Shown: positions 1,748-32,148 of the stretch, one piece after another
Layout: every line of letters starts with the position of its first letter
How positions within the stretch are numbered: position 1 is the stretch's first letter
Source of the DNA: a virus
IMG/VR virus record: IMGVR_UViG_3300042890_002891
Coordinates: 124,001 to 188,000 of that record
Strand: one strand, 5' to 3'
DNA: 64,000 bases
Position numbers and translations under genes: made by a program
The notes under the pieces: model-generated
Told to the model about the DNA's origin: nothing
What the model saw: only the letters and a program-made list of their open reading frames with translations
Database searches by the model: none

Positions 1748-4700
1748 TTACTGTGTTTTGATAATGCTGGCCATGAGTCTGAGTCTACTTTCGTGGACTG
1801 CTTGGGCTGACTGTTTGGCATCCTGATCAAACTGTTTCTTTGTGGCCTTGACAATTCCGCTGAAGCGACGATCACCAGTTTTGCGATCACCTGCGGAATC
1901 AGCAGCAGTGGCAGCAGCACCGGCTTTGGTTTTGTATCTGGCAAGAGTAGCAGGGCTGAGTTCGTCTAGTTGTTTATTATCGGTTGCTGCGTCTTGCTGA
2001 CCTGTTAGTGCTTGCAGCAATGCTCTAGCAACCACACGATCTTTTTCTTGTTCATCGTCAGGCAACTGATCATAGTCAATGTTCATCAACTTTGCTCGTT
2101 GTTGAAGTTTTGCTTCTAGTTTGCCAGCGGCTCGTAATTTTTCTGTGTCATCAAATTGTTCAGGATTTTGCACAAATGCTTGAGCAGTGGTATTCCAACC
2201 TTGGTGAATGGCATCGCTGATGGCTTCGATGTCTGTGACGCCTTGATCAATCATTTGTTTGGCATACGCAGCTGATTTCAAGTTTGCTTGCCATCCAAAT
2301 GTGTTGCCAGGGCTACTACGACCATATCCGTATGCAGTATCCAGTGCTTCGTCACTGACAGTTGCCAGTTGTTGTACGCTTAACTGCTGGTCATTGCCTT
2401 CCGACACACCTCTACCTAGTTGTCTTAGATCAGATGTCAGCACTGTTTTTGTAGTGGCACTGGACGGAATTGTGATACGAGCATGCTCTCGGTCCCGGCT
2501 CATGTCAACCACTTGTGCTTTTTGGTCAATGTACCGTACTGTGTCACCTATCTGTATCTTTTTCATGGACACACCGCCAAGATTGACTGGTCGATCACCT
2601 GCATAGTTACCGTGGGCTTCTGAGATATCCTGTTCGGTCATTGAACTCATTTCAATGTAGCCTTTTTCTTGTGCGTCACTCCATCTGGCCCATTCACGAT
2701 TATCTATTGACACTGTGGTTCTACCTGTAGTACCGGAGTACTCTGAGTTGTCATCGTACTTGGAACTGTTGATATCATCTACTGCTTGTGACCACTGTTT
2801 CTTATCATCAAAGAATTTTTTAGTTGGTGCTGATGGCAAATTGATGCCACGAGTTCCACCCATGTGATCCACATCAAACGGGAAGCTGCCTTTGAAGTTG
2901 TGGGCTTCTGCTATGCCTTGCTCGGGCAGTTGACCCGCAGGGCCTGCCATTTTGTTTCTTGCGCCGCGCTTGATTTTGTATTCACGGTTGGGACTAGTCA
3001 ACTTCATATTACCCATGATCTCTCGGGCTTGGGCCACACTGTGATATGTTCCTTCTTTTTTGCCATCTCTATAAATGCTATACACATACTCTGCATCAGG
3101 AGTGTGTCCCAAGGTGTAGTTGACAGATCCATCTGCGGCTGAGCCTTCCGCCACACCTTGCTGTTTAAGTTTAGCAGTAACTACTGGATTCTTACTTGTA
3201 CCAAATCTTGCTACTGCTTTCTTGATTGCTTGTTCTTTAGTGCCACTGAAAGTCATAGTGTGTGATGTGCCACCTGTCTTGGTGCCAACTGTAACTACCC
3301 ACTGTTGATCAGAGCCTTCCGCCACGCCTTGAGAAGCATTCTTTGAAATTTTGAAATACTTTTGTCCCTTGACAATATCAACTACATCCAACAGCCCTTT
3401 TTTATACAGGTAGTAATCAGTACCTTCCATTCCAGCGACCCCACCTGGGCTTCGGGGATTTGGATCAATACCTGCTGCTCTTAACATATCTGCACGACTG
3501 CGAACTTTTCCATCCTGCATCACTCTCAATACTTTTTTCATTTTATCATTGATTGTGTTTGGAACTTTGGACAACCAAGAATCATAATTTATCTTGAGTT
3601 TGCCTTCCGCCATGTCTTGCTCTCCATCAGAGCTAAGAATAGATTCTAATTCATCTACTATTTTATCATATTGAGGTGTGCCGTCAATTTCCTCGGGATT
3701 AGTGATAACTCCAGTTACATAAACCATTGCTCTATAGAACTCAGGGCTATCATCAACTGCGGCCTTTACTTCAGGAACAGTTTTATAGATTTGAACCATC
3801 TTTCTTGCCAAGCCACGGTATTTGTTATTAATGTCTATTACTGTGCCTTCCGCCACACCCTGCTCATCCAACTCATCATCTGTTCCCATGCGGTCATCTT
3901 CGAGTCCTGCTATGTCTGCTGCACCGCCTGCGTCTCCGGCTGTTTGTTGTATGGCCGACCATAGGCGCAGTGGAGCAACCAGATCATCACCGCGAAATTC
4001 AATGTGGTCACCAAAGCGATCCATCACAGCATAGTAAGCAGGTTCAGAGTCAATGAAAAATTTCACTTCATCATCAGATCTGGCACCCTGCAGATTGTCT
4101 TGCGATTCAAATTGGTCTGCATCTTTAGCGACTCTACGCTCACTGCCTTGAGCAGGGAAACCTTGTTGTGATTGTTGGGTCGGTTGTTGAATTTTTTGTG
4201 CTGCTGGATTGGATAATTTTGCTGCTGCTGCTTTTGTTTGAGCGATGGTCATCCAGGTGTTTCGCTGTCTACTGTCCATGGGTTGACCTCGTTCTGCAAC
4301 CATTTGGGCGTAAATTTCTTTAGCCAGGGCATTTACATCTTGATTTTGTTGTATGCGAGGATCATCTCGACGCATATTAAAAAGGTCAGACGTGGTATCT
4401 TTGGCCATGACTTGCTCGTCTAAATTCCTAAAAAAGCCGTGCCATATTTTGTTGCCATTATTGACATGTATGTCTGTTATCATAAACCCTGTATTACTGA
4501 TGCCCAGGTCTTCCAACCAAGAATCAAATTCAAAAATAGCACTATCTTGATCTCGACGAGCCAATTGAGTAAACCGTTTTTGGTCCACATCTGCCAGCCA
4601 CTTGTTTCCCAGGCCAGATCTTACAGAATTTAGTAGTTTAATTAATTCTTCATCAGTTAGTTTAAAAACGCCACCGTCTCCACCGCCATTACCATCGTGA

Positions 4701-5251
4701 TTGCTATCACTGCTGGGTGCAAATTCGTTTAATCGGCCTTTTGCCATACCTTGCTCTTTGAGAGCACCGTAATTTTTTAGTAGCATGTTAGCGCCCTGAA
4801 CAAAATCAGCATCAATTTGATACAGCATTTTTACTAGTTCTTGGTGTTGGCGAGCAGCCAGGGCCGGTTCAGGACTGTAGGATCTGTTACCTGACATTAT
4901 TCTATTAGATGCAGTGTCACGAGAACGTGCAATACGATCATATTCTTTTCTAAATTCTGGATTTGAAAAACTGAATTTATCTGCTGTGCTCCGCACTCGT
5001 TGATATTCAGCTCTTGCTGCTGGGTTTTGAAGCTGTGCGGGACCACCTGCTGGTGCTACTGGAGTTGACCCCATTGGCGGTTCTGTTGCGTCATCATCAT
5101 CATCTGTTGCTGTTGCTGGTGCTGCTGCTGAAGTGTTTACACCTGGTAAGTTTTGCAAGTTTGGGTAAATTGGATTACCGTTGGCGTCAAAGGTCACACG
5201 TTCCGTTAGGTTGTCGGTGGAGTTAGGTTTGAAAAATTCGTCAAGTATCAT
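1748..5251 (-). CDS. Large modular repeat-punctuated protein, candidate processed polyprotein
   Basis: 1167 aa, highly charged. It is divided by copies of a short motif of the form QGVAEG, QDMAEG, QGIAEA, QDISEA or RGVSEG near residues 166, 463, 543, 639, 696, 776, 872 and 945. The segments between them are unrelated to each other and 50-290 residues long. One segment (about 885-940, KKIQIGDTVRYIDQKAQVVD) looks like a KOW/SH3-type barrel. The N-terminal part has an Ala/Thr/Asp-rich linker, and the C-terminus is lysine/alanine-rich. The punctuation fits (L/I/V)xE sites of T4-type prohead proteases, so I infer a head-packaged polyprotein. No enzymatic domain is recognised. Confidence 0.7.
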   Translation of the reverse strand: MILDEFFKPNSTDNLTERVTFDANGNPIYPNLQNLPGVNTSAAAPATATDDDDDATEPPMGSTPVAPAGGPAQLQNPAARAEYQRVRSTADKFSFSNPEFRKEYDRIARSRDTASNRIMSGNRSYSPEPALAARQHQELVKMLYQIDADFVQGANMLLKNYGALKEQGMAKGRLNEFAPSSDSNHDGNGGGDGGVFKLTDEELIKLLNSVRSGLGNKWLADVDQKRFTQLARRDQDSAIFEFDSWLEDLGISNTGFMITDIHVNNGNKIWHGFFRNLDEQVMAKDTTSDLFNMRRDDPRIQQNQDVNALAKEIYAQMVAERGQPMDSRQRNTWMTIAQTKAAAAKLSNPAAQKIQQPTQQSQQGFPAQGSERRVAKDADQFESQDNLQGARSDDEVKFFIDSEPAYYAVMDRFGDHIEFRGDDLVAPLRLWSAIQQTAGDAGGAADIAGLEDDRMGTDDELDEQGVAEGTVIDINNKYRGLARKMVQIYKTVPEVKAAVDDSPEFYRAMVYVTGVITNPEEIDGTPQYDKIVDELESILSSDGEQDMAEGKLKINYDSWLSKVPNTINDKMKKVLRVMQDGKVRSRADMLRAAGIDPNPRSPGGVAGMEGTDYYLYKKGLLDVVDIVKGQKYFKISKNASQGVAEGSDQQWVVTVGTKTGGTSHTMTFSGTKEQAIKKAVARFGTSKNPVVTAKLKQQGVAEGSAADGSVNYTLGHTPDAEYVYSIYRDGKKEGTYHSVAQAREIMGNMKLTSPNREYKIKRGARNKMAGPAGQLPEQGIAEAHNFKGSFPFDVDHMGGTRGINLPSAPTKKFFDDKKQWSQAVDDINSSKYDDNSEYSGTTGRTTVSIDNREWARWSDAQEKGYIEMSSMTEQDISEAHGNYAGDRPVNLGGVSMKKIQIGDTVRYIDQKAQVVDMSRDREHARITIPSSATTKTVLTSDLRQLGRGVSEGNDQQLSVQQLATVSDEALDTAYGYGRSSPGNTFGWQANLKSAAYAKQMIDQGVTDIEAISDAIHQGWNTTAQAFVQNPEQFDDTEKLRAAGKLEAKLQQRAKLMNIDYDQLPDDEQEKDRVVARALLQALTGQQDAATDNKQLDELSPATLARYKTKAGAAATAADSAGDRKTGDRRFSGIVKATKKQFDQDAKQSAQAVHESRLRLMASIIKTQ
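2396..4756 (-). repeat. Eight dispersed copies of a 21-bp in-frame repeat in the 1167-aa gene
   Basis: Copies lie at 2396-2416, 2614-2635, 2902-2923, 3143-3163, 3314-3334, 3602-3622, 3845-3865 and 4736-4756. The best plus-strand version is GCCTTCCGCCACACCTTGCT, which on the coding strand gives QGVAEG. Several copies match in nearly all bases, including third codon positions, although the flanking segments are unrelated. The copies at 2614 and 2902 are more diverged and encode SEA/AEA. Confidence 0.85.
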
Positions 5252-5252
5252 G

Positions 5253-5933
5253 TTATGCTTCTTCTATGTAATCTGCTGAGGAATTTCTGGCAGCATTTTT
5301 TCTATGTGCCTGAAACATTCTCACGGCCATGTCTGCTTCATCCAGACTTCTGAACCGACTGGGCAACACCCGACCCAGATGACGGATTTCAAAACCGCGC
5401 ACCTGATCGCCATAACATTCCAGGCATGTGCCATCTTCCAGAGTGATAGTTTTTACAGGACCAGCTTCGGCCATCACAGGGTTGATTGTGGGCGGCGGAA
5501 CATAGTCTTCACCGCTGGGTTCGTCTTGAGTGGGGTCTTCCGACACTTCTTGATCGTCGGCCTTGGCTGGATTACGGTCTTGTATTTCTTTGCTGGCCTT
5601 GCGTTCTAGTTCTTTTTTCTTGTCTTCCAGTTGATCCAGATACTGTGTAAGGTCTTTTCTGACCCGGCTCAGCATGTCTTCGTCAATCTCGGCCATGCGT
5701 TCGGCCAGTGCAGTCTGAGTGGGTACCACATCATCTCCTACCATGTACCGGCCAAAGGGTTTGGATTGCTTGTTGCTGCCCAGCACCGGAGACACCGTTT
5801 CAGGCTTGAACAAGGCCGGCAATTGTGGCACTGATTTTTGTTGTGCGTTGAGTCCCGATTTTGTTTTGACAGGAGTAATGTCTGACTCTATCACAGCCAG
5901 ACGTTTTAGTATATTGGCGATGCTGTTGCTCAT
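5253..5933 (-). CDS. Conserved phage hypothetical protein, coiled-coil centre
   Basis: 226 aa. Residues 75-120 form a charged probable coiled coil (QYLDQLEDKKKELERKASKE). The C-terminal third (TITLEDGTCLECYGDQVRGFEIR and on to RSLDEADMAVRMF) is a compact domain that I recognise as recurring in marine T4-like phages, of unknown function. It contains DQEVSEDP and VMAEAG, which resemble the processing-type motif of the neighbouring polyprotein, and it ends DYIEEA. Its ATG overlaps the stop of the Dps-like gene by ATGA, and its stop lies just before the 1167-aa gene, so the three are translationally linked. Confidence 0.6.
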   Translation of the reverse strand: MSNSIANILKRLAVIESDITPVKTKSGLNAQQKSVPQLPALFKPETVSPVLGSNKQSKPFGRYMVGDDVVPTQTALAERMAEIDEDMLSRVRKDLTQYLDQLEDKKKELERKASKEIQDRNPAKADDQEVSEDPTQDEPSGEDYVPPPTINPVMAEAGPVKTITLEDGTCLECYGDQVRGFEIRHLGRVLPSRFRSLDEADMAVRMFQAHRKNAARNSSADYIEEA

Positions 5934-6370
5934 GCTCTATTGTCTTTCAGATAACTACGCAATTGCCAATGATATTTTCCATGCTGACTTAGACGTCCTG
6001 CCACAAAGTCAGCAATACCCTGTTGATTTTCTTGTTCTGCTTCGGCAAAGCACTGATTCAACAGATCAATCATTTGTTGATTGTTGGCCAACAGTTCTTC
6101 AATCATGAGTCGAGCACGTGGTATTTTGGTCTGACCTGAAATTTGTGTAAGCTCGCCAAAACGTTCAAAACTGGCCGGTGCATACTCGTCAAGATATCTT
6201 ATGTACTCGGCAACAGGATCTACGGCTGAATACGCATCTTGGTAGATGTTCTGGAAAAAATCATGCAGTTCGCCAAAGTCCGGCCCTTCCACATTCCAGT
6301 GAAAGCCCTGGGCTTTTAGATAGTAGGCAAAGTTAGTTGCCAATAGAGTTTTTAAACTGTCCGCGAGCAT
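5930..6370 (-). CDS. Dps-like ferritin-family protein
   Basis: 146 aa, the right length for a Dps/ferritin four-helix bundle. Helix A carries FHWNVEGPDFGELHDFFQ and helix B continues QDAYSAVDPVAEYIR, matching the Dps ferroxidase pattern H-W-N-V-x-G with later His, Asp and Glu ligands. Known Dps proteins store iron, detoxify peroxide and often coat DNA. A phage copy beside proteins with capsid-targeting-like N-termini could protect packaged or replicating DNA, which is inference. It overlaps the upstream 70-aa gene by 38 bases and the downstream gene by ATGA. The DNA-binding basic tail of E. coli Dps is absent. Confidence 0.8.
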   Translation of the reverse strand: MLADSLKTLLATNFAYYLKAQGFHWNVEGPDFGELHDFFQNIYQDAYSAVDPVAEYIRYLDEYAPASFERFGELTQISGQTKIPRARLMIEELLANNQQMIDLLNQCFAEAEQENQQGIADFVAGRLSQHGKYHWQLRSYLKDNRA

Positions 6371-6834: not shown

Positions 6835-6854
6835 TGCGACACAGTCAGATCAAA

Positions 6855-7544: not shown

Positions 7545-7545
7545 G

Positions 7546-8577
7546 TTATCCTTTTAGCAAGGTGCTCAGGCGACGCATGCGGCTCACACTCTCTTCAAAA
7601 TTTGATTCACGCACTGGGTTTGCCGGTGCTGCGGCATTCTGGCGATCCCATGCAGCCTGTGCAGCGTAACCAGTACTTGGTCTCGGAGTAGCTGGTTTTG
7701 GTGCACCGCTGGTGCTGTGTGTTTTACCATACTGTTGATCCCATGCCATCTGTGCAGTATAACCAGTGCTTGGTCTTGCTGGCGCATACATGGGGTTGCG
7801 AGGCATTGTATTAGTAGGGCCTAGTTTTTCGTTTGCCGGTGGTGTGGCATTCTGTGCCATTTGTGTAGCTGTAGGACCACCGGCACCACCACGACCGCTG
7901 CCTGCATCACCAGGTTTTGCAGCAGACAGAATAGCACCGGAAGTGTTGGGTCCAATTTTACCGTCAGCAGGGAGGCCATTCTTTTGTTGAAAGGCCTTGA
8001 TAGCTGCTGTGTCAGGTTGGCCATTCTTGTAAAGTCCCATACTGCTGGCATATCCCAGGATGGCTGGGCTGATTGTGGAACGGGCAGGTGCTTTGGCAGG
8101 AGGTGTAGTGGTTTGCACAGTATTTGCAGTATTTGCAGCATTTGCTGCCACGGCTGCATCCACACCAGTCACATTGTCAGGCTCACCACTGGCTGCCACA
8201 GCATCAGCAACCGGAGTTGCTGCTGGTGCCGCTGCTGGTGCTGCTGCTGGTGCTGCTGCGGGTGCTGCTGCGGGTGCTGCCGCAACTGTTTCACCAGGTA
8301 ATGGTGCAGGCAGTCTTGCCATGATATATTTGTCCATGGGATCCGCACCACCCAACCACTTTAGTTGGCTTGGTGTGAGACTGGCTCTTGCTGTGGCTGC
8401 ATCAGGATACGGTGTTGCTGCCTGGGCTCCACCACCAAGTGCGCTGGCAATTTTTCTACCAAAGCCCTTGATGGAATCCAGGTTTTTTGCACCTTGTGCT
8501 TGTTGTGCTGCAAATTCAGCATCTGTCATTGGTGTGCCATCGCGCCCGGCTTCGTTTAAAAATTCACTTGATCTCAT
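7546..8577 (-). CDS. Peptidoglycan-binding protein with capsid-targeting-like N-terminus
   Basis: 343 aa from the ATG at 8577, chosen because it gives MRSSEFLNEAGRD, matching the shared N-terminal motif; an upstream in-frame start would hide it. A PAPA-type alanine/proline repeat (about residues 100-130) and a threonine/alanine linker lead to a peptidoglycan-binding type 1 domain (GYASSMGLYKNGQPDTAAIK, AFQQKNGLPADGKIGP). The C-terminal part contains two similar RPSTGY(T/A)AQ(M/A)AWD units. Likely a virion-associated cell-wall binding protein, probably processed after the LNE site. The next gene downstream is the LysM-lysozyme. Confidence 0.75.
   Translation of the reverse strand: MRSSEFLNEAGRDGTPMTDAEFAAQQAQGAKNLDSIKGFGRKIASALGGGAQAATPYPDAATARASLTPSQLKWLGGADPMDKYIMARLPAPLPGETVAAAPAAAPAAAPAAAPAAAPAATPVADAVAASGEPDNVTGVDAAVAANAANTANTVQTTTPPAKAPARSTISPAILGYASSMGLYKNGQPDTAAIKAFQQKNGLPADGKIGPNTSGAILSAAKPGDAGSGRGGAGGPTATQMAQNATPPANEKLGPTNTMPRNPMYAPARPSTGYTAQMAWDQQYGKTHSTSGAPKPATPRPSTGYAAQAAWDRQNAAAPANPVRESNFEESVSRMRRLSTLLKG
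8209..8292 (-). repeat. Tandem Ala-Pro codon repeat
   Basis: On the plus strand the units GGTGCTGCTGCG and close variants repeat about six times, encoding (AAAP)n on the minus strand inside the 343-aa gene. It is a flexible linker and a likely site of replication slippage. Confidence 0.8.
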
Positions 8578-8620
8578 AGTTTTTCCTTTTTCGGATAGTC
8601 CGATTTGTTGTTTATTTATT

Positions 8621-9058
8621 CTATTTGCCCTGTGCTGCCAATCTTGCACCATTGTTAAAGCTGTTGCTGTAGCTCAGGGCACTGCGGTTACCTCGGGCCT
8701 TGGACCAGGCATAACCGGCTCTGTGACCCGAACAATCCTTGGTACAAGGTGAGCCCAGGAAACTGAGTTCATCCAATGGTGTAATCATTGGTTCCCAAGA
8801 TTCCCCAGCGTCCCCGGCCTTTTGCTGGACTGCTTGAATAGTTGCCATGGGATATTGTTTTTCAATTTTTTCCATGGCTTGATTATACATCTGAACTTGA
8901 CTAACAACATCTGCTGCAGCCAGTGCGGTGTTTAGTCCGGGTATGAAGTAAAGCAATGTGGACAACAGTGGAAATTTATCCTTGAGTTCTGTGTAGGCAT
9001 TTCCCTTGACTTCTTGCCCAGCAAATTTTGTTTCATGAATGAATTCACTGGCTCTCAT
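8621..9058 (-). CDS. Small protein with capsid-targeting-like N-terminus and CSGH motif
   Basis: 145 aa. It starts MRASEFIHETK, one of the clearest copies of the shared leader. A hydrophobic helix follows (LLSTLLYFIPGLNTALAAAD). The C-terminal end carries CTKDCSGHRAGYAWSKARG and SFNNGARLAAQGK, a motif pair I recognise from short domains in many phage proteins, of unknown role. Its ATG overlaps the stop of the 1345-aa gene. I infer head packaging and N-terminal trimming after the IHE site. Confidence 0.65.
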   Translation of the reverse strand: MRASEFIHETKFAGQEVKGNAYTELKDKFPLLSTLLYFIPGLNTALAAADVVSQVQMYNQAMEKIEKQYPMATIQAVQQKAGDAGESWEPMITPLDELSFLGSPCTKDCSGHRAGYAWSKARGNRSALSYSNSFNNGARLAAQGK

Positions 9059-12000
9059 TTGGCTGCTCCAAATACAGGACCGCTCACATACTGTCCCTGT
9101 TGATTCAGCACGCCAGATCTTAGTTGATCTACCATGGCATCAGTGATGTGTCTGCGACGCATGTGTGGGACAATGATGTGTACTTCCACAGGATCGTTGC
9201 CTTCTTGCTCCAGAATACTGTGCATTCTGTGGCGGCCGTCATGATTACTCACATGTGCCATCTGGCTAAAATCTTCTGATTCCCAGGCTTCAGGAATCAC
9301 CACTGTGAGCCAGGGTGCGCCCACGCCTTTTTCGTCCAGATTCTTTTTGATGTATTCAATGGTCTCACGCTCGTCTGCAGATTTGACATCTAGAGGCAAC
9401 GCCAATTCCAAAAACATACTGGGACGCATGACCACTTGCAGGCCTTGATATCCAATTTGTTGATTGTTGGGCACTGCTCCAATGCCCGAGGCATTGTTGA
9501 TTTTTAGTTCATTTACAATCTGTTCGTTGGTATCTGAGCCATCGCTCTGAACCGGATACACCTCAGTTGGCACACTGATGCTGTTGGTTCTAACCCATTC
9601 ACCTGCAATTCTATTGGCATCCACTTGACTGTTGCCTATGCCGCCAAATCTATACAATTCTTCTCCGGTGTTGCCATCTACAATTTTCCATTGGCCGTTC
9701 CAGAAGCCTCTGGGTTGTGCTATGGGGATATCTATGTCAATGTCTTGCACTCCAGGAATTGGAGTGGGTGCTGCGGCTGCCTGGCGTTGGCGTTGTAGAT
9801 CCAGGGTGCTGCCCGGGATCGGTGCACCAGGCTCTGTTACTGTTGTTCCATCCTCGCGTTCCAGTCGGTACCCGCCTTCACTTGGGTGACTGTAATTGTA
9901 TATTTCCCATCGATCCAGGGCTTCCTCATCACTACCAGCACGGAACGCCATGCGAGCCACGCTGCTTTGTGCATCGCTGATATAATAGTTTTGTGTCTGA
10001 AGAACGGGTCCTGCTAACTCAACACTGAACTCATTGGTATTGATTCCAGGATTTTGTTGTTGCAAGTAACGATTAGCCAGGATCCGTGCTGTGTCGGCAT
10101 CTGATGCTGCCACTGTGGTCACTGGCGTGCCTGCTGCATTTTTGACCACATAGCGTTGTCTTGATCCTGAGGTTGCTGCTGGCTCCTTGGTTGCTGCCGG
10201 CTCCGGAGCAGGATTCTTTTTCAGGCCACGTTCCAGCTGTGCCTGTTTCACAAAACTGCGCAGAGCAGCCTTGGGTATTTTGCCAGCCACATAGTCCACA
10301 AAGTAACGGATTGTGCTGTCGTCCTTGCTGTCAGCAGTCAGCAACTTGTACAATTTCTTCTGATACTCTTGACGATACTTTTCAGGATCAACCGCAGCAT
10401 CCAGAGCCACAACAAATCTCAACAGGGTAGGTTCAATCAGGTCAAAGTTGTCACCCAACCAGTCGCCGCCGGGACTGCGGAATTCCACATAGCCGTCTTT
10501 GGTATTGATACTGGTGTACTTGGCAGTGGTGCCCGAGTGAATGGCCTTGGTAGCAAGACTATCCATGTTGGCTTTCATCTTGGTCAACAGTGCAGCCGCA
10601 GGGCCAGGATTTGATCTTATGTTGTCCTTGACAATCTTCATGGCACTCTTGGCATAGGTATTGCCTGCACGACCAAAATTTTCCAGCACTCGCTCGTCAC
10701 CCAGCAGCACAGCCAGTTTCACAAAGTCCAGTTTTTCTTGGCTAAAGCCCGGCACACTCACGTTGATGTGCAGACCAGTTGAGTCATTGGTATAACAGCC
10801 TGTGCGATTTGCCCAGGCACGGACCTTGTTCAGATCACTCAGCATTTCATCTATGGGCAAGGGCGGACTCACAAACTCCAGGCCTTGGTCGTCATCACTG
10901 TCAGGATCAAGACTGCCATCGGGTTCAACCACATAGCGTCCGGCCTCGCGGCGCCCACCATGATATCGATCACTGGCATTGACCGGACGGCCAATTGCGT
11001 CACTGAAGTCGTCGCCTACCTGATTGATGTCAACATTGGATTCGGGGTCAGTGTAGTAGGGCCATGAAATGGTGTATTCACGCAACACATCACTCATTTG
11101 GTCAATACCAATATCATTCAACCAGGTGGATTCTGTCCAGTCACCTTGCATGTCGGATTCGTATACTTCTCGGGCAGATTCATAGATCGAGCTGTCGTCT
11201 TGCGCCAACCATTGTTCTTCAACAAATTCTTCCAGCATTGCACCTGTGCGCTTTTCAATCATTTGATCACGTTCTGCTTCGGGCAGCTCTCGATAGAACA
11301 AATCTTGTTCCAGTTCTTCACGGGCAGTGGCTTCGGCTTCGCCGCCATCAAACTCGCTGTTGTTCACAACATAGTCACGCAAGAAATCGCGGCCTTCTTC
11401 ATACCAGCCTTCACTGATCTTTTCAAATTGCCACTGGCGGAAGTCTTCGTACAACTTGTCGTTGAGTCTGCGAATGTCGCCCCTGCTGTTGTAGTCGCCG
11501 TCGTCAAAAAAACGAACAATGTCGTCAATGTCATTGGCAGACTCGTCACGATCCATGTCCTCTTCAGCGTCACCGCCGCCTTCTCCGGGCACAATCATTT
11601 CAAATTCCATACCTGCCAGGGCACCTGTCTTGGCAGCTTCTCGTCGTAGATTCTTGCTGCCCATGTTGATTTCAAACAGGTCCTGTTCTTCAAATAATTC
11701 TAGCTCACGTGCCAGACTTTCTGCCAAGGTGTTGGTGGGTTTCATCAACAGTGCAGGATGTCCCTGTGCGTCTGTTTGCAATCCAAGTTTGTTGGCTTCT
11801 TTGCCCACAGCACCTGGACGCACGTCTCGGGTCAGGGCCATGACAAAGCGAGGATCGCGGGCTTGTTTCTTTGTAGGGATGTAGCCTGATGCTTCTTCTA
11901 GTGTGACACCATCAAACATCTCAGGTTGCTCATCGGCCCAGTCTCGCATGATACGACCTGCCATGGCATTGGCTTGATCTTCATACGGGCTACCTGTTGC

Positions 12001-13092
12001 ACCAGCATCCAAGGGCAACGGCTCGCGCTCGTCCTGTTGACGATGTGTCATTTCATGTGCCATGGTGCGAAGTATGTCCAGCACATGGCGACCCGATGTG
12101 GCCAAGATCAAGGTGTTTGAGTCTGGATCATACTGTCCAAAGCTGCCATTTTCTTGACTCCATTCAGGAGTGGTTTCCAGTCTCAGCTCGGGTGGATTTT
12201 CCAGTTGCAGTTTGTTCACACAGCTGGAATAGAAGCGATTCAAGATTTTTCGAAGTTGATCAGGATCTGTGCTTTCGTCCACCTGTTCGGCTTCGGTGCC
12301 AGCAGGATGATCTTGGCCAGCATAGGCCGTGCCCGGATACCAGTAATCACGCATGCCATAGTTGACTGTTTTTCGTTCACGAGGTCGTGTGTTGAGACTG
12401 AGTTCTTGATCTCTAGCTGCTGTCTTGGCAGCCAGCAGGTCGGCAATGCAGCCTTTATTGCGTAGCAGTTTGAACGCAATGTTTTCGCAGCCAAACTCGC
12501 CGTTTTTCTCCAGACCTGTCTGGCGCATGGTCTTGATCTTGTTCCAGAGCGAGTCTATGGCTTCGAGATTTTTTGTTTTTATGGCAGCATGAATTCTGGC
12601 GTCAAGGTCAGCTGTTTTGCTTTGCACACAGTTGTCATCAATCTTGGCTCGTCGGCGTTGTGGCACCTGCAGCCAGTCAGAGTTTTTTACACTGTAGATG
12701 CCCTGTGAGTGATGTGCTTGATCAGCAGGTTGCACATAGAGTTCTACATCTGCGCCGCCAATGCGAATGTTGTGCGTGTCGTTGTATTGATATTTCTTGG
12801 CATCAAACAGTTCTTGATACACAGGATCATCGGGCATTTCTACCACCAGATGCAGGTCAATGTCTGAATTTGCAGTGTAGGAATAAGCAGCGTTGGAGCC
12901 GCTGAGTGTGATGTCTACCAGCTTGAGATCATCCACACCCAGAAACTCTCGGAAGTCATCGGCCACTGCCAGCAGTTTTTGTTGAACCTCAGGCAGCAGG
13001 TGCTCGTCTGTGCCCCACAATGCAGGGTTCAGACGGCGATGGAATTTTACAGCATCTGCAAGATTAAAGGAGTTCAGTTCGTTGATGTTCAT
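9055..13092 (-). CDS. Giant multi-domain protein: nucleotidyltransferase, zinc metallopeptidase, amidoligase, ParB-like
   Basis: 1345 aa. Residues 55-125 are a polymerase-beta-type nucleotidyltransferase (GSNAAYSYTANSDIDLHL, with G65-S66, D77 and D79). Residues about 300-390 hold a metallopeptidase site HEMTH at 346-350 and a downstream E371. Residues about 490-900 resemble amidoligase/glutamate-cysteine-ligase folds (GMEFEMIVPGE, GLEFVSPPLP, TGLHINVSV, YVEFRSPGG). An acidic insertion lies near 510-650. The last 150 residues contain VSNHDGRHRMHSI, a ParB/Srx-like pocket. Acidic linkers such as EQVDES and DLFEIN separate domains. Such a fusion is too large for one enzyme and suits a cargo polyprotein (inference). 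Confidence 0.75.
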   Translation of the reverse strand: MNINELNSFNLADAVKFHRRLNPALWGTDEHLLPEVQQKLLAVADDFREFLGVDDLKLVDITLSGSNAAYSYTANSDIDLHLVVEMPDDPVYQELFDAKKYQYNDTHNIRIGGADVELYVQPADQAHHSQGIYSVKNSDWLQVPQRRRAKIDDNCVQSKTADLDARIHAAIKTKNLEAIDSLWNKIKTMRQTGLEKNGEFGCENIAFKLLRNKGCIADLLAAKTAARDQELSLNTRPRERKTVNYGMRDYWYPGTAYAGQDHPAGTEAEQVDESTDPDQLRKILNRFYSSCVNKLQLENPPELRLETTPEWSQENGSFGQYDPDSNTLILATSGRHVLDILRTMAHEMTHRQQDEREPLPLDAGATGSPYEDQANAMAGRIMRDWADEQPEMFDGVTLEEASGYIPTKKQARDPRFVMALTRDVRPGAVGKEANKLGLQTDAQGHPALLMKPTNTLAESLARELELFEEQDLFEINMGSKNLRREAAKTGALAGMEFEMIVPGEGGGDAEEDMDRDESANDIDDIVRFFDDGDYNSRGDIRRLNDKLYEDFRQWQFEKISEGWYEEGRDFLRDYVVNNSEFDGGEAEATAREELEQDLFYRELPEAERDQMIEKRTGAMLEEFVEEQWLAQDDSSIYESAREVYESDMQGDWTESTWLNDIGIDQMSDVLREYTISWPYYTDPESNVDINQVGDDFSDAIGRPVNASDRYHGGRREAGRYVVEPDGSLDPDSDDDQGLEFVSPPLPIDEMLSDLNKVRAWANRTGCYTNDSTGLHINVSVPGFSQEKLDFVKLAVLLGDERVLENFGRAGNTYAKSAMKIVKDNIRSNPGPAAALLTKMKANMDSLATKAIHSGTTAKYTSINTKDGYVEFRSPGGDWLGDNFDLIEPTLLRFVVALDAAVDPEKYRQEYQKKLYKLLTADSKDDSTIRYFVDYVAGKIPKAALRSFVKQAQLERGLKKNPAPEPAATKEPAATSGSRQRYVVKNAAGTPVTTVAASDADTARILANRYLQQQNPGINTNEFSVELAGPVLQTQNYYISDAQSSVARMAFRAGSDEEALDRWEIYNYSHPSEGGYRLEREDGTTVTEPGAPIPGSTLDLQRQRQAAAAPTPIPGVQDIDIDIPIAQPRGFWNGQWKIVDGNTGEELYRFGGIGNSQVDANRIAGEWVRTNSISVPTEVYPVQSDGSDTNEQIVNELKINNASGIGAVPNNQQIGYQGLQVVMRPSMFLELALPLDVKSADERETIEYIKKNLDEKGVGAPWLTVVIPEAWESEDFSQMAHVSNHDGRHRMHSILEQEGNDPVEVHIIVPHMRRRHITDAMVDQLRSGVLNQQGQYVSGPVFGAAK

Positions 13093-14093: not shown

Positions 14094-15716
14094 CTACCTG
14101 GATTCGTCCAGATAATCTGCAGAATCGTCAGCCTGTTGTTTCAGCGACTGAATCTTTGTTTTCAAGCTGGCAATCTCTGCGGCCATGCGTCGAATCTTTT
14201 GATCCATCTCATGATCATCCACATTGCTGTGCATGAGACTGCGTTGCACCCACTTGTCAAACGCTGATTCAGGGTCTGCTGCCAGGTTGGGATAGTGGCG
14301 TTTGGCATAGTTCTTGATGGCATTTAGTTCAGAGTCATTGGTTTGATTGCTGGCTTCGTTGACACCTTGTGCAATTGCTTCTCTGGCCTGGCGTTCATTT
14401 TCTGCTTTGAATTTTTGTATAGCTTGACTGTCAGTGAGTTGTCCACGATCCAATGCTTGCCAAATTGATAAATCAAATGTAAGAAGTTTTTTTTGTACGG
14501 CTTGTGCAAAACTAAGTTCATTGGTGCCGCGGCCCTGCCAATCAGGCTTCTGGCCCCATACAACTGATATAGACCTATCGTCGGGCAGTGTAATCCTCAT
14601 ACGCTCGCCGTAAAATACATATTTACTACCTTGCCAGGTAAAAGCAAGATCGCCATTCACTGTTCGTCCCATGCTCCAGCCATGCTTTTTAATCAAAGCA
14701 TCAACTGCGGCTTGATCTGCATTTTCAGCCACATGTGTGTTAGAGACTTCCGCCACACCTTGCTCTTTTATATTAAATATTTTCTTTGCTTTATCATTGA
14801 GATTGCTGGGTCTAATAAGTTTAGCAGGTATTGTTTTTGCTTGGGACTGTATTGCCTTATGTAGTCTATGGTTGCCATCGAGTATCCAGGCTATTTGATC
14901 TTGCTCATCTACCATTATTAAAATAGGAAATTGTTTAGACACTGTTACTTGATTAACTCTTTCCATTTCTTCTGGGTTACCGTCCCAATGAAGTAGTTTA
15001 CTCTTTAGATTATCGTTTATCGGTAAATTTATTTGTTTAATGTGTTTGGTTAATTCTAAAATATCCTGTAGTGTAATTTTATCTGTGCCTTTGGACCAAC
15101 TTGAGTCGGCACCGCCTTCCGCCATATCTTGTGCTTCTGCACCCATGGCAGTGTCCAGCATGTCAACCACATTGGCCGCCAACTTGGGATTGCTTTGTGT
15201 CTCAGGATACAGGCTCATCACCAGGGCTGTCTTGCGTTTGGGGTTGAGAGTGGGCCATGCCGATCGTATTTCTGTGGCTGATGTCATACCGGGCCCAAAC
15301 TCCACTGTGGGCAGGTAAGCCATGTAGGCATGCTGAGTCATTGGAGCCATGTCATCACTGATGGGTTGCAGATATGCAGGCGTGCCATCTTTCTTGGTAG
15401 CACCTGCCACAGGAGGCTTGTCAGCGTCTTTTTCACTGCGAACAAAGATCAACTGTGTGTCTGCAGGATTGTAACTCTTGGTAATCTCATCCGCACGGAA
15501 TGGGCTTTTGACTTGATAGAACTTTCCAGGAGGAACACCGGCCAGTTGTGCTAGTTTTTCTTTGAGTTTGAACGGAAATGGTCGAGCAGAAGTGTCGTTG
15601 GTGGCCGCTACCTTGACATCAGCGCCAGGAAAAGCCTGCTCAGCAGATTGATACAGTGCTAGGTGGCCTGCGTGAAAAGGGTGAAATCCACCAGGCATGA
15701 TGACTAATTGTTTCAT
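14094..15716 (-). CDS. Modular protein: HxGH nucleotidyltransferase, ParB-like domain, repeat-punctuated
   Basis: 540 aa. Residues 1-190 are a cytidylyltransferase-like domain (GGFHPFHAGHLALY, with later ATEIRSAWP). After AQDMAEGG near 194, residues about 200-317 form a ParB/Srx-like module (ILIMVDEQDQIAWILDGNHR). EQGVAEV near 317 and AQGVNEAS near 448 then separate a small beta module (HGWSMGRTVNGDLAFTWQG) and a helical C-terminus that ends in a coiled coil. The same separators occur in the other giant proteins, so this is a further candidate processed polyprotein. No SD is obvious; TAAATA lies just upstream of the ATG. Confidence 0.75.
   Translation of the reverse strand: MKQLVIMPGGFHPFHAGHLALYQSAEQAFPGADVKVAATNDTSARPFPFKLKEKLAQLAGVPPGKFYQVKSPFRADEITKSYNPADTQLIFVRSEKDADKPPVAGATKKDGTPAYLQPISDDMAPMTQHAYMAYLPTVEFGPGMTSATEIRSAWPTLNPKRKTALVMSLYPETQSNPKLAANVVDMLDTAMGAEAQDMAEGGADSSWSKGTDKITLQDILELTKHIKQINLPINDNLKSKLLHWDGNPEEMERVNQVTVSKQFPILIMVDEQDQIAWILDGNHRLHKAIQSQAKTIPAKLIRPSNLNDKAKKIFNIKEQGVAEVSNTHVAENADQAAVDALIKKHGWSMGRTVNGDLAFTWQGSKYVFYGERMRITLPDDRSISVVWGQKPDWQGRGTNELSFAQAVQKKLLTFDLSIWQALDRGQLTDSQAIQKFKAENERQAREAIAQGVNEASNQTNDSELNAIKNYAKRHYPNLAADPESAFDKWVQRSLMHSNVDDHEMDQKIRRMAAEIASLKTKIQSLKQQADDSADYLDESR
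14352..15134 (-). repeat. Three copies of the 21-bp in-frame repeat in the 540-aa gene
   Basis: Copies at 14352-14372 (diverged, encoding QGVNEA), 14746-14765 (CTTCCGCCACACCTTGCTC, nearly identical to copies at 3143 and 3845) and 15114-15134. They separate the domains of the 540-aa protein. Confidence 0.8.
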
Positions 15717-26780: not shown

Positions 26781-26787
26781 TGCTGTG

Positions 26788-27599: not shown

Positions 27600-27865
27600 T
27601 TGCCCACGCCTTCAAAGATGCGGCGTTGTATTTCATACCATTCAATCCAGGCATCTGTTTTCACAGCACACTCATAGTAGGTGCTGTAGTTGATGGTGAT
27701 GGTTCTGCTGACGTCACTGAGTAGGGCATCGTCTTTTAGTTTCTGCAGGTTGGGACAGGTAACCATGGCCTGCTTTCCCGGTGCTTCGGGGAATGTCATT
27801 GACACAGGTACCAAGGTGCTGCATGCTGATAATAAGAGTGCTAGTGCTAATACAAAGATTTTCAT
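27596..27865 (-). CDS. Small lipoprotein, candidate outer spanin
   Basis: 89 aa from the ATG at 27865. The start is set by an ATGA overlap with the 769-aa gene. The signal is MKIFVLALALLLSAC with a lipobox LSAC, so the mature protein begins with lipidated Cys and stays at the outer membrane. The mature part has PEAPGKQAMVTCPNLQKLK, a Cys that could pair with a partner. Beside the endolysin this fits an Rz1-type outer spanin (inference). Confidence 0.65.
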   Translation of the reverse strand: MKIFVLALALLLSACSTLVPVSMTFPEAPGKQAMVTCPNLQKLKDDALLSDVSRTITINYSTYYECAVKTDAWIEWYEIQRRIFEGVGK

Positions 27866-30171
27866 TTTTTCTTGGCCCTTCCTGATTTCATATTTGCTAA
27901 CCAATGGGCTAGTTGTCCTTTGCGTCCACCCTGCTTGGCAGTTTTGCGTAGACTGCTTACACTGGCTTTGGTGTTGATACCGTGACGTTTGGCATCGCCT
28001 TTGTCTTGAGGATTGCGACCGTCGGCAAAGTTTTCATCGACTTCTTTATCCATTCGTTGAGCTTGTTTAAATGCGGTATCATACCTTTTGCTATCTTGTG
28101 TTGCTGGATTGCGTATAGCATCATCACCGCCAATACGGCCTTTTTGTATATTAGTAGCCAAGGTGTTGGCCAAGGTGTTAGTTCCAACAAATTTACTGCG
28201 TAGTTTTGCCTGTTTCATGCCTTGGATAGCTTGTTTTGTTTCTGGTCCAGTGTAGGCATTTACTTGGAATACAGGAGTTTGTTTATTGGCTCTAGGAATA
28301 TCTTGCACTCCGGTTTCGCAACGAACTGCAAGAGGCTCGCTTGGTATGTCTAGGCGTTTAAAATAAAAACTACTATTAGTCTTGATATCTTGTATCCAAA
28401 AAGCTCCACCCTTTGGCACCTTATCTTCTAAATCAGGAATCATATCTACCATGGTTACAAGATTACTCATCATTCTGGGACCTATGTTTCTAGTCATAGC
28501 ACGGATTACACTGTGATTATCAAGATATACTATCCAGTCACCTACACGATGTTTAATAATTTCGGTATGCTGATGATTCGAGCCTTCCGCCACAGCTTGC
28601 TGACCTCCGGTCCATGTTGCCATGAGCAAATTGTCTGAATCGTAACCGTATAACTTGCTCAATTTATTTTTAACAGCAGGGGTGAGTTGGCCATTTCCAG
28701 GCACAACATCAAATGCCCAATAGGTACGGTTGTTGTTTTTGGCCACAAACTGTCCACCCAACTGCATCAATTGATCTATAGTGTTGTCAACTTGTCTGGA
28801 CTTGTCAAGCTGGAAGTCGGCTAGATCCAACAGTCCTTTGATCTCAACCCCAGGAATAGAGGCCAGGCTCAGCCAGTTTCTACGACCGCCGGGAGTTTGA
28901 CTATCGCCAGAAATCAAGGTCTTTTTCATTATGGTCAACACAATGCCATACAAGGCTCGGGCCAGGCCGCGTCCGCGATAGTTTTCGTCAACAGTGATAG
29001 AACCAACTTGAACACTGTCAGGAATCACACCTTTTCCCAAGTACAAACCTGCCACAATAGACGGTTTTGTTGTTCCGGGAATTCCAGGATCAAGAATATG
29101 CACATAAGAATCGTATGTGATTGAATACATCAAGCCACTGCCGCCCGGCAGGGCACGAAGGTGTTTTTTTCCTGGAGTACTGAAACGGTCTAGTGTATCT
29201 TTACCGCCACGAAAATGAGATTGCTTCATGTTCTCAATTTCTGTCAAGGAGCCTTCTGTCACATCCTGCTGCTGGTAATAGAAACTGTGAACATCGGTTT
29301 CTGGATCGTATTTTACCACAAGGTCGTCCAACACAAACTCATCACCATATTCTTCCACAGCTTGAGCAAAGCCAGTGGCATCGCCAAAAACATGCTCTAT
29401 AACGTCATCATCTGTGCAGTTGCCAATATAGCTTAGATTGTTCTGGCCTTCTGCTAGGCCCCGCTGACCCTCGTGTTCTCCACGCATGGCACGGTCAACA
29501 TAGTCGTCTGACACTGCTTGTTCTAGGTCCACTTTGACACCCAGTTGTTTTGCCAGTGATAATATTTTGTCACGACTCATGGAGTCTTGATATATTGCAC
29601 TTAGACTTGCTTGGCCTTCACTGTAATCACCCCATTCTTGCCATAATGGAACAACTCCGTCAATTTGTTTTAGTCCGCGATACATCTTTTTCTGCAATGC
29701 AGGATCAGTGGCATCTGGGAATTGTGGATTAACACATACAAATTCTATTTCTTTGTATCCAGCCGGTGCTTCTGAAACATCTTGCTTGCCTGCCTGTGTG
29801 GCTATCTGCATGGCATTGGCCAAGTCTTGTTTAGTGAACCGTTTCAATTCACCACGCAGCATCGCCTGCTTGATCTCTTCGGGCCCAAAGTTCACATACT
29901 GTGTGTCAACACCACCTGTTGTGTCTGGTCCCACCAACTGTTGTTCATTGTCGAATCTACCACGGCAGTCATATGCCGTGCCATCTGGCGCCACTGTGTA
30001 CACATGATCCACACGATACTCAGTGTCATCAGCAGCATCATCGTCATAGCCTACATGGGCACGTATTTGCCAATCAGGGTGCAACTGCTTCAATGCCATG
30101 GCCATCACATGACAGTGTCCTGCCATAAAATCGTGACCCTTGACTTCTGAAACAAATTCACTTGCTCTCAT
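27862..30171 (-). CDS. Modular protein with capsid-targeting-like N-terminus: peptidase-like, GNAT, basic tail
   Basis: 769 aa. It starts MRASEFVSEVKGHDF. Residues 10-125 look like a papain-like fold (AGHCHVMAMAL, later VDHVYTVAPDGTAYDCRG), giving possible Cys-His-Asp residues. Separators KQDVSEA near 128, QRGLAEG near 235, QQDVTEG near 300 and QQAVAEG near 523 divide it. The 306-523 module is a GNAT acetyltransferase (VGSITVDENYRGRGLARALY). The last 60 residues are strongly basic (NPQDKGDAKRHGINTKASV, LAHWLANMKSGRAKKK), a tail I recognise in marine phages and probably DNA-binding. Candidate packaged, processed polyprotein. Confidence 0.75.
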   Translation of the reverse strand: MRASEFVSEVKGHDFMAGHCHVMAMALKQLHPDWQIRAHVGYDDDAADDTEYRVDHVYTVAPDGTAYDCRGRFDNEQQLVGPDTTGGVDTQYVNFGPEEIKQAMLRGELKRFTKQDLANAMQIATQAGKQDVSEAPAGYKEIEFVCVNPQFPDATDPALQKKMYRGLKQIDGVVPLWQEWGDYSEGQASLSAIYQDSMSRDKILSLAKQLGVKVDLEQAVSDDYVDRAMRGEHEGQRGLAEGQNNLSYIGNCTDDDVIEHVFGDATGFAQAVEEYGDEFVLDDLVVKYDPETDVHSFYYQQQDVTEGSLTEIENMKQSHFRGGKDTLDRFSTPGKKHLRALPGGSGLMYSITYDSYVHILDPGIPGTTKPSIVAGLYLGKGVIPDSVQVGSITVDENYRGRGLARALYGIVLTIMKKTLISGDSQTPGGRRNWLSLASIPGVEIKGLLDLADFQLDKSRQVDNTIDQLMQLGGQFVAKNNNRTYWAFDVVPGNGQLTPAVKNKLSKLYGYDSDNLLMATWTGGQQAVAEGSNHQHTEIIKHRVGDWIVYLDNHSVIRAMTRNIGPRMMSNLVTMVDMIPDLEDKVPKGGAFWIQDIKTNSSFYFKRLDIPSEPLAVRCETGVQDIPRANKQTPVFQVNAYTGPETKQAIQGMKQAKLRSKFVGTNTLANTLATNIQKGRIGGDDAIRNPATQDSKRYDTAFKQAQRMDKEVDENFADGRNPQDKGDAKRHGINTKASVSSLRKTAKQGGRKGQLAHWLANMKSGRAKKK
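28582..29788 (-). repeat. Four copies of the 21-bp in-frame repeat in the 769-aa gene
   Basis: Copies at 28582-28602 (GCCTTCCGCCACAGCTTGCT, close to consensus), 29251-29271, 29446-29466 and 29768-29788. The last two are more diverged. They fall between the recognised modules. Confidence 0.8.
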
Positions 30172-32148
30172 TTAGCAGTTCCATTTACGCAGGGCCAGAG
30201 CCTTGCGGGTAGGTTTACCATTGGGCTTTTTCATTGGGCCTTTTACGCCGCCCATTCTGGCACAGAATGATTTGCGGCGTTTGGCTGCTTTGGAGCCAGG
30301 CTTGAGTTTTGACGGCTTGGTTGTGACTGCTGTTTGCAGTTTTGATCCGGGATTCTCTCTGCGATAACTGGCCACACCCTTGGCGTTGAGCCCGCCCCGG
30401 GCGCTCTTGCCTTCTTTTCTGCGCCAGGCTGCTGTTTCGTACAGTTCGTGATCATCCACTGACTCAAAGTCTTCCCAGATCACATCTGAATCCACACCAT
30501 GTGATTCGGCCAGTTGTTCTACCATGTCTTCGATCATGTCAAACTGCTGATCTGTTGTGAGTTCTTCTGTGACAGGCACACAGTTGGGCACCTGGCGGCC
30601 ACTTTTGTTTTTCATGCCCTGTTGCTGATAGCCGTCCCAGCATTTTTCATCCAGTTGCTGTTCTGCCATGCCTGGCTTTTGTTTATAAATTGTAACTTGT
30701 GTTGAACTGTTGAACTGGCCGCCATTTTGTTCAATAAAGTCAAGTAGTTGATCATATGCGGCTTGAGCAGTTTGACCACCTTCAAAACGCCGAGATACAA
30801 TCTCAATACCTATTCCATTTCCTTCTATAGAATTATCTCTTTCTACCTGATATGCTCTGCCAATTTTGTTTTGGATCATGCTAACAACAGATTGATCTGG
30901 ACACAACACTTCAATTGCAAATGCTACTGGATATTTGCCACCAAGCAGTTGCGTTGCTTTGTAAGGCGAAGTTTTTACCGTGTTGAATTCTTCCGAGCCT
31001 TCTGCCACACCTTGCTTTTTATTGTCTTGCTGTTTATCGCCTTGACGCCACCAATATGCGTTGTATTCTTTGCTGTCGTAGCCAGGTACTTTGGCATCAC
31101 TACCGTGTTTGGCACGCCACTCACGCTTGAATGCGTTGTATTGTGTCATACCTTTGTCTTCCGCTACACCTTGCTGACTATTGATGCTTACATAGGCGAC
31201 TGGAATAGTTTTCATCTCAGCTAACCAAAACGCCACCATTCTATGACGGCCTTCCATAACAAACAAATGTGGATCACCTGCTTCTACATAGATGGGCAAT
31301 GGCTTTGCTCCACGCTTTAACAACTTCAAAATACGATTAGTGCGGTCTTCATCTTCGGGAAATTCATCATATGTCCCATACATTTCACGAATCTGTTTGA
31401 TGAACTTTTCAATAGATTCTTGCTTGACTTCAACTGACAATTTATCAGGAGTAGTATTCATCCAATCAGCAACATCGTCTAAATCTTGCTGATTGTGTTT
31501 TGAGCCTTCCGCCATGCCTTGCTTCTTGATAGGAGTTAGTGTAAAATCTTTATTGACTAAAAATTGCTTTCTTTGTCTGGGACCGATCTTTTGTCCATCG
31601 GTATAGTGGAATAATACTTCAACATAAACTTTGCCGTCGTGCTTATAGTATTGAATGTCAGTATAGGCACCTGCCACTTTTTCAGGATCTAAATATTGGT
31701 TTAACGCAGTCCCTATTCGACTTCTGATTTGTAGTCGAGGAGTGAACTTAGCATCTTCTTCTTCACCTTCCGCCACGCTTTGCTTTTTAGTCTCTGGTGG
31801 TTTGGCCACACCGTCTTTGCCTCGGACCAACCCAAGTACGGCAGACATATCTCTAGCACCTTTGAGAGCACCCTGGGCTAGTTTCTTTTCTTTTGATCCC
31901 ATCTTGGGTGCAGAGTCTTTGGAGCCTTCCGCCATGCTTTCTGACTTGTTGCCATAGTTGCTGGCACCTTTTTTGCGACACTGTACCAAACGACCAGACG
32001 CATAGGCACTGGGCCATACTTTTGCTGAAGCCTTGACCTTGTAGTAGCAGGCATCTTTCTTTTCTATTAGATCTGAATATTCCATCAAGGGTCCACCACA
32101 GTGCGGACATTTTTGTTGTGATTCTGTAATGATATCATTTATGTTCAT
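30172..32148 (-). CDS. Modular protein with targeting-like N-terminus, ParB-like module and basic C-terminal domain
   Basis: 658 aa. The start MNINDIITESQQK has an (I)TE site. Next come a zinc-ribbon-like CPHCGG and KVWPSAYASGRLVQCRK, a DUF5872-like element. Separators SESMAEG (68), KQSVAEG (121), KQGMAEG (208), QQGVAED (324), KQGVAEG (377) and KPGMAEQ (490) cut it. The 209-320 module contains LFVMEGRHRMVAFWLAE, a ParB/Srx-like pocket. The last 85 residues are basic (KEGKSARGGLNAKGVASYRR, KSFCARMGG), matching a DUF6321-type domain common in marine phages. Likely packaged and cut into modules; the tail may bind DNA. Confidence 0.75.
   Translation of the reverse strand: MNINDIITESQQKCPHCGGPLMEYSDLIEKKDACYYKVKASAKVWPSAYASGRLVQCRKKGASNYGNKSESMAEGSKDSAPKMGSKEKKLAQGALKGARDMSAVLGLVRGKDGVAKPPETKKQSVAEGEEEDAKFTPRLQIRSRIGTALNQYLDPEKVAGAYTDIQYYKHDGKVYVEVLFHYTDGQKIGPRQRKQFLVNKDFTLTPIKKQGMAEGSKHNQQDLDDVADWMNTTPDKLSVEVKQESIEKFIKQIREMYGTYDEFPEDEDRTNRILKLLKRGAKPLPIYVEAGDPHLFVMEGRHRMVAFWLAEMKTIPVAYVSINSQQGVAEDKGMTQYNAFKREWRAKHGSDAKVPGYDSKEYNAYWWRQGDKQQDNKKQGVAEGSEEFNTVKTSPYKATQLLGGKYPVAFAIEVLCPDQSVVSMIQNKIGRAYQVERDNSIEGNGIGIEIVSRRFEGGQTAQAAYDQLLDFIEQNGGQFNSSTQVTIYKQKPGMAEQQLDEKCWDGYQQQGMKNKSGRQVPNCVPVTEELTTDQQFDMIEDMVEQLAESHGVDSDVIWEDFESVDDHELYETAAWRRKEGKSARGGLNAKGVASYRRENPGSKLQTAVTTKPSKLKPGSKAAKRRKSFCARMGGVKGPMKKPNGKPTRKALALRKWNC
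30660..31944 (-). repeat. Six copies of the 21-bp in-frame repeat in the 658-aa gene
   Basis: Copies at 30660-30679 (diverged), 30997-31017, 31156-31176, 31504-31524, 31765-31785 and 31924-31944. On the plus strand the shared core is (G/A)CCTTC(C/T)GCCA(C/T)(A/G)C(C/T)TTGCT. Four are nearly identical to copies in genes 12-28 kb away. Confidence 0.85.

Follow-up and report, generated by a model that had tools for sequence, protein, structure and literature searches.

An in-frame 20-bp repeat as a probable release site and recombination joint between modules of phage polyproteins

We examined a 64,000-nucleotide stretch of viral DNA (hereafter the window), bases 124001–188000 of the 261,673-bp virus record IMGVR_UViG_3300042890_002891 in IMG/VR, in which a short repeat, read in frame as (K/Q)QGVAEG(S), recurs within four long genes. 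We consider it likely that this repeat is both a protease-type release site and a homology joint between polyprotein modules, which are exchanged by general recombination. The four genes are listed here; the domain matches named for genes 2 and 3 have Pfam scores below the cut-off, and DUF6321, a family without known function, scores above it.

1748–5251, minus strand: polyprotein gene 1, 1167 amino acids (aa), at least six modules
14094–15716, minus strand: polyprotein gene 2, 540 aa; module 1 cytidylyltransferase-like (weak), module 2 ParB-like (weak)
27862–30171, minus strand: polyprotein gene 3, 769 aa; one GNAT-like module (below the Pfam cut-off)
30172–32148, minus strand: polyprotein gene 4, 658 aa; about five modules flanked by conserved ends (DUF6321 at the C-terminal one)

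A search of the window with AGCAAGGTGTGGCGGAAGGCT, allowing up to five mismatches, returned 13 minus-strand matches and no match on the other strand, with 0.1 expected per strand (expected repeat counts are means over 20 Markov shuffles). All 13 copies are in frame and lie inside the four polyprotein genes. With up to six mismatches, the minus strand had 21 matches (0.85 expected per strand): 16 in the four genes, one in the gene at 5253–5933 (DQEVSEDP) and four elsewhere whose translation differs from the motif. More decayed copies, such as QGVNEA and QDVSEA, are visible at the protein level only. In the whole record, all eight matches with up to three mismatches fall in the window. The original prediction, made from the sequence of the window, had counted about 20 copies in the four genes, which is fair if decayed copies are included; its statement that other genes hold none stands except for the weak relative at 5253–5933, which it had already named. 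The 21-bp unit that it described is real, with the sharply conserved part corresponding to AGCAAGGTGTGGCGGAAGGCT, 20–21 bp long. Its description of the motif as (V/I/M)xE fails for the copy at 4735–4755 (EQGMAKGR), in which Glu is lost. The copies in the four genes and the weak relative are as follows.

2395–2415, minus strand: repeat GRGVSEGN, 6 mismatches
2902–2922, minus strand: repeat EQGIAEAH, 6 mismatches
3142–3162, minus strand: repeat QQGVAEGS, identical to the consensus; right parent in the junction of locus L245 (see below)
3313–3333, minus strand: repeat SQGVAEGS, 3 mismatches
3601–3621, minus strand: repeat EQDMAEGK, 4 mismatches
3844–3864, minus strand: repeat EQGVAEGT, 2 mismatches; serves as left parent in two natural junctions (L245 and L239)
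4735–4755, minus strand: repeat EQGMAKGR, 4 mismatches, Glu lost
5534–5554, minus strand: weak relative DQEVSEDP in the next gene (5253–5933), 6 mismatches
14744–14764, minus strand: repeat EQGVAEVS, 1 mismatch
15113–15133, minus strand: repeat AQDMAEGG, 5 mismatches
28581–28601, minus strand: repeat QQAVAEGS, 1 mismatch
29250–29270, minus strand: repeat QQDVTEGS, 4 mismatches
30996–31016, minus strand: repeat KQGVAEGS, 1 mismatch
31155–31175, minus strand: repeat QQGVAEDK, 3 mismatches
31503–31523, minus strand: repeat KQGMAEGS, 2 mismatches
31764–31784, minus strand: repeat KQSVAEGE, 4 mismatches; forms the left border of the module that occurs in L239
31923–31943, minus strand: repeat SESMAEGS, 6 mismatches

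The repeat core exists in two linked versions, GGTGTG (QGV) and GGCATG (QGM), the latter with two bases changed together, as at 31503–31523.

We examined whether module exchange between polyproteins has its breakpoints at the repeat. Among 165 non-redundant repeat-bearing open reading frames (ORFs), 167 of 1190 interior alignment starts (26.9 expected) and 203 of 1128 ends (24.9 expected) fell on the repeat. Breakpoints between polyproteins are therefore found there 6–8 times more often than expected, and a count on whole loci gave the same pile-up. In a complementary comparison of 385 copies with full flanks, 106 pairs shared the left side only, 104 the right side only and one pair both. These pairs were defined by identity thresholds, with identical copies removed and intermediate pairs left out, a selection that creates a sharp edge partly by construction, so that the breakpoint count is the fair test. 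Within the shared-flank pairs, repeat positions 1, 3 and 5 track the left module and positions 18–21 the right module; they resolve the crossover point only at the ends of the repeat, the middle being near baseline in both sets.

Individual junctions show what the counts imply. In L245, the part of gene 1 that ends with the repeat at 1388 is joined directly to the part that follows the repeat at 2090 (positions within gene 1), with 97–98% identity to gene 1 on either side of the junction. The junction repeat agrees with the left parent at position 5 and with the right parent at position 21, which locates the crossover between these two positions. In L239, on a contig shared with L178, a segment matching gene-1 1179–1407 (96%) is followed by one matching gene-4 365–645 (91%). 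The two segments overlap by 20 bp, which is the repeat, and modules of two window genes are thus fused in a single gene of another phage. A gene-4 module (988–1123, 98%) has been placed in another polyprotein in L218; one junction of this locus appears to use AGCAAG only, with a shortened spacer, and such a partial-unit junction suggests microhomology. In L154, both ends of gene 4 are kept (92%) with different modules in between. Decayed copies likewise border exchanges. In L118, at about 830–1240, the same 62-aa module occurs twice in tandem with the repeat between, the arrangement that unequal crossing over would give. The original prediction had proposed that the repeat is a recombination patch that shuffles modules between polyproteins. 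The natural junctions demonstrate it: relatives show modules exchanged at the repeat, and in L239 the exchanged modules come from two window genes.

The repeat is also conserved as DNA. Its base identity at wobble positions despite unrelated flanks, another element of the original prediction, withstood several controls. Across 210 copies from loci below 52% GC (16 of 226 copies were dropped), information content jumps at −2 and drops at +18 relative to the Gln codon, with the flanks near background. The repeat codons are conserved across GC bins holding 6, 79, 78 and 44 copies, in a count where GTG and GGC were favoured by the pattern used to fetch the loci. For 71,612 pairs with unrelated flanks, formed from copies selected at up to five mismatches, discordance at fourfold sites was 0.19 for Gly, 0.15 for Val, 0.19 for Ala and 0.30 for the last Gly, as compared with 0.68–0.69 in the flanks; silent positions are thus far less variable in the repeat (0.15–0.19) than elsewhere. 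Copies identified instead by their protein motif, 72 in number and from loci retrieved through protein similarity, showed weaker but clear conservation (fourfold discordance 0.24–0.40 vs 0.65–0.73), with GCG in 53/72 (background 9%), GTG in 48/56 (30%), GGT in 55/72 (43%) and CAA in 70/72 (73%). An N-terminal leader found in the same phages (see below) served as a control: it is similar as protein in 116 distinct cases and has roughly background codons, except AGA for Arg and AGT for Ser4. Thus, protein selection alone does not yield the silent conservation of the repeat. The repeat combines the features of motif-guided recombination, being a conserved motif, alike at silent sites, that borders exchanged segments.

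The probable function of the repeat as a hydrophobic-x-Glu protease site is suggested by codon-wise selection, the cleavage motif of phage T4, the leaders and the T4-type protease in some related records. From single-base changes among 390 distinct copies, the nonsynonymous/synonymous ratio per possible change was 0.04 for Glu, 0.32 for Ala, 0.35 for the following Gly, 0.49 for the first Gly, 0.76 for Val and 1.38 for Gln. At the Val codon, 39 of 41 single-base amino-acid changes lead to Met or Leu. Among 210 decayed copies, 204 kept Glu, and the P3 residue, Val in the consensus, was V, M, L or I in 209. In T4, gp21 cleaves after L/I-x-E, and a 10-residue leader targets internal proteins into the head (PMC9026906, PMC9958956). 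Two of the four window genes open with a capsid-targeting-like leader.

30145–30171, minus strand: N-terminal, capsid-targeting-like leader MRASEFVSE of gene 3
32122–32148, minus strand: N-terminal, capsid-targeting-like leader MNINDIITE of gene 4

A strict leader pattern was found in 169 of 1351 complete ORFs of repeat phages and in none of 110 bacterial or 234 GC-rich viral control ORFs; within the same loci, it opened 33 of 111 repeat ORFs vs 149 of 1030 others. The same type of leader (MRASEFIHE, MRATEFVTE and MRSSEFLNE) opens further window genes, namely 8621–9058, 32145–32588 and the ORF at 7546–8652 (start probably at 8577). The sequences suggest that the products of these genes are packaged separately alongside the polyproteins. 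Among 16 large related records, six encode an S77 (T4-type prohead) protease, and the same six encode Gp23. All six capsid proteins retain L-x-E at residues 40–42, and all five aligned proteases (six were found) have a Glu-Ser pair after hydrophobic-x. The T4 portal was detected in 7 of 17 records, the window's record not being among them.

Beyond the window, a pattern scan of IMG/VR found the repeat in at least 120 viral contig stretches, some by chance matches, and 138 of 150 pattern matches in these stretches sit in frame with the longest ORF. Of the 120, the 21 stretches with at least 52% GC were mostly chance-like and were left out of later counts, L099 among them looking genuine. In ORFs of at least 100 aa, 496 copies were in frame vs 6 out of frame. 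A pattern free at silent positions matched 56 times in 17 large records selected for holding the repeat, with 56/56 matches on one strand per record (three records had a single match), and the reversed control pattern had no match in these 17 records. Near-exact copies were absent from 50,697 public phage records searched with a 34-nt query, whose only hits were two exact matches of 17 bases; the repeat would therefore have escaped work on cultured phages. Among prokaryotes (84,980 species, each represented by one genome), a 20-base pattern yielded 11 places, all single copies and none in a module array, and plasmids gave nothing beyond 18-base exact or imperfect matches. The nearest public relatives of the capsid proteins belong to large T4-like phages (Vibrio phage 2.275.O, 69.6%; Sinorhizobium phage Phosso, 68.3%; Pseudomonas phage PA5oct, 66.9%), a kinship that covers the six Gp23-bearing records, the window's record being without detected Gp23.

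Several observations weigh against a combined release site and homology joint. The window's record, which may be a fragment, has no detectable S77 protease, Gp23 (Pfam) or T4 portal; S77 and Gp23 were also undetected in 10 of 16 other large records, which may be fragments too, and a closer S77 profile built from related phages found nothing in the window's record or those 10 others. A clear leader is present in only two of the four window genes. P3 is mostly Val here, in contrast to the L/I-x-E motif of T4, and Glu is lost in some copies (4735–4755 and the L245 junction, EQGMPKGH). Hydrophobic-x-Glu-small motifs inside modules numbered 406 vs 217 expected from shuffles, and hence are not depleted; cleavage may also take place within modules, or decayed joints may have been missed when the module borders were set. 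On the DNA side, most copies were picked by DNA similarity, a choice that favours conserved ones, and among the protein-picked copies the Glu codon did not depart from background usage (GAA 64/72, p 0.08). The alignment pairs in the breakpoint count are not independent, which makes its p-values too small.

Part of these data could be accounted for if the repeat were a plain flexible linker, an uncut domain spacer that recombination spreads because it is tolerated anywhere. Such a linker explains the exchange and the silent-site identity without a protease, and fits the failure to find S77 in the window's record. A linker, however, has no need for Glu, yet Glu is the most constrained codon (0.04) whereas Gln is free (1.38), and of 210 decayed copies, 209 have a hydrophobic P3; we regard the linker as unlikely. 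Dedicated site-specific recombination, in which a recombinase would use the repeat as its core site, or a homing-type endonuclease would target it, with modules handled much like integron cassettes, agrees with the sharp 20–21 bp unit and its conserved silent positions, the single strand of all 56 matches in the records chosen for the repeat, and the crossover inside the repeat in L245. By contrast, no associated recombinase is known, although no systematic search for one was made. Folding of the repeat strand was unremarkable (z 0.68 and 1.09 for two sequences), so that the repeat does not resemble a folded single-strand site of the integron type. The L218 junction with its partial unit (AGCAAG) fits microhomology, and decayed copies border exchanges too. 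We therefore give site-specific recombination little credence. A broader version, a community-wide cassette system for injected protein modules among uncultured large T4-like phages, in which the in-frame 20-bp sequence would serve for proteolytic release and at once be a dedicated site of recombination, integron-like for protein domains, is conceivable but improbable.

The remaining explanations are far less plausible. Rickettsia palindromic elements are units that insert in frame into genes, and a mobile mini-element of this kind, with the modules as bystanders, would leave many in-frame copies (496 vs 6) with sharp edges. The repeat, however, has no hairpin and lacks the palindrome of Rickettsia-type elements, and its one-sided flank sharing (106 left, 104 right, 1 both) indicates module exchange, not insertion into a conserved protein, which makes a mini-element very unlikely. 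A codon or RNA signal, in which translation or the mRNA would require particular silent bases, would explain the conservation of these positions; we hold it to be just as remote, given that the kept codons include the rare GCG (7–13% background) and that no fold was found. Finally, assemblers can be misled by repeats, and the contigs could be chimeric at these sites. The gene-1 array, however, is identical over 1167 aa in three more contigs with different sample numbers, from possibly independent samples, frames are open across the junctions described, and 20 bp is below the usual assembly word length. An assembly artefact is thus scarcely credible.

Given these considerations, we favour the combination of release site and homology joint and propose the following scheme. 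The four genes would encode polyproteins, strings of small modules that are probably carried in the phage head and injected. As protein, (K/Q)QGVAE|GS would present a hydrophobic-x-Glu site cuttable by a T4-type prohead protease, such that modules are freed in the head. As DNA, it offers a short block of identity in constant reading phase, through which unrelated modules can be joined in frame, both within a genome and between phages. The junctions themselves are observed, and joining would proceed by general recombination, probably with a phage recombinase or by annealing on short homology. Every exchange would re-copy the repeat, which could keep the silent positions alike across unrelated modules, as the controls suggest. 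The outcome would be a cassette-like pool of modules common to uncultured, large phages that are at least partly T4-like. If so, one short sequence releases many effectors from a chain and lets phages trade them in frame, which would be cassette evolution in action at the protein level, and the idea of a protease site doubling as a recombination hot spot becomes directly testable. The repeat would then also offer a sequence tag by which environmental phages can be searched for unknown modules, hundreds in number and perhaps of anti-defence function.

Related principles operate in other systems. The T-even tail adhesin gp38 recombines between conserved motifs, and T4-type phages have PeSL cassettes. 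These resemble the present case in that a short conserved sequence guides the exchange of variable segments, and differ in that receptor-binding loops or intergenic control cassettes are concerned, whereas the joint described here is coding, a probable protease site, and present in many genes and phages. Integron gene cassettes likewise make up a shared stock of modules that carry the same short site, but they are whole genes served by a dedicated integrase. T4 IPI, IPII and IPIII have a short N-terminal leader ending in hydrophobic-x-Glu that is cut after Glu by gp21 (PMC3012670, PMC9026906), and mature IPI, at 76 residues, approximates the median internal module here (75 aa). Each T4 internal protein is, however, a separate protein, whereas several modules per chain share a common 20-bp joint here. 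Polyvalent proteins, encoded by phages and conjugative elements, have 2 to 15 domains, and the phage ones are predicted to be packaged (Iyer et al. 2017, PMC5512222); the authors draw a comparison with viral polyproteins and raise recombinational variability for kinase cassettes. They are multi-domain chains, as the window's polyproteins, with their weak cytidylyltransferase, ParB-like and GNAT matches, may also be, but their release is attributed to embedded peptidase domains, and the available text of that paper describes no conserved DNA joint. Domain mosaicism in phage proteins (Smug et al. 2023, PMC10684548) is similar as an ongoing exchange of parts among phages and differs in that no shared short joint is described in the corresponding text of that study. 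Thus, leader-bearing packaged internal proteins, polyvalent effector proteins and motif-guided recombination are already known. As far as the literature was searched, the new element is a probable release site and a recombination joint in one in-frame 20-bp sequence across many genes and phages; neither the peptide QGVAEG nor such a joint was found in open-access PubMed Central, and it may be in print elsewhere.

By analogy, the modules probably have an anti-defence role; mature T4 IPI is injected and blocks a restriction enzyme (PMC3012670). A shared 62-aa module of related loci, outside the window, was predicted to form a compact beta-beta-beta-beta-alpha fold (mean pLDDT 80.3). This model had no match at E 0.001 or better among solved structures and one match in a viral structure set, an uncharacterized protein of an uncultured phage. 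Modules were clustered by single linkage, and the largest cluster (46 members) chains several different modules, so that neighbour counts were left unused. A model of the whole gene-4 protein folded alone was poor (mean pLDDT 39.8) and was set aside.

As to the individual genes, residues 1–1167 of gene 1 recur at 100% (rounded) identity in three other contigs, L233, L234 and L235. Gene 1, gene 3 and two module peptides had no match in the 50,697 public phage records, and genes 2 and 3 had none among solved structures (phmmer). The cytidylyltransferase-like part of gene 2 matches two public phage records; cyanophage virions contain a cytidylyltransferase family (PMC3037559), which shares its name with the gene 2 match. 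The ends of gene 4 match 522 public phage records, mostly of cyanophages, and one cyanophage relative sits between gp15 and gp16 in P-SSM2. Elsewhere, the window encodes a T4-type clamp loader (phrog_168, 2.1e-75), along with tail and lysis families and long minus-strand genes. One of its genes (9055–13092) encodes a 1345-aa protein without the repeat, polyvalent-like in its make-up, which has an amidoligase domain (Pfam, above the cut-off) and a metallopeptidase-like match (below it). The leader-bearing gene at 7546–8652 contains a tandem array (8211–8285) with a 12-bp unit of the CTGGTGCTGCTG type, and the gene at 59644–60438 resembles NAD synthetase (phrog_11189, 7.4e-80).

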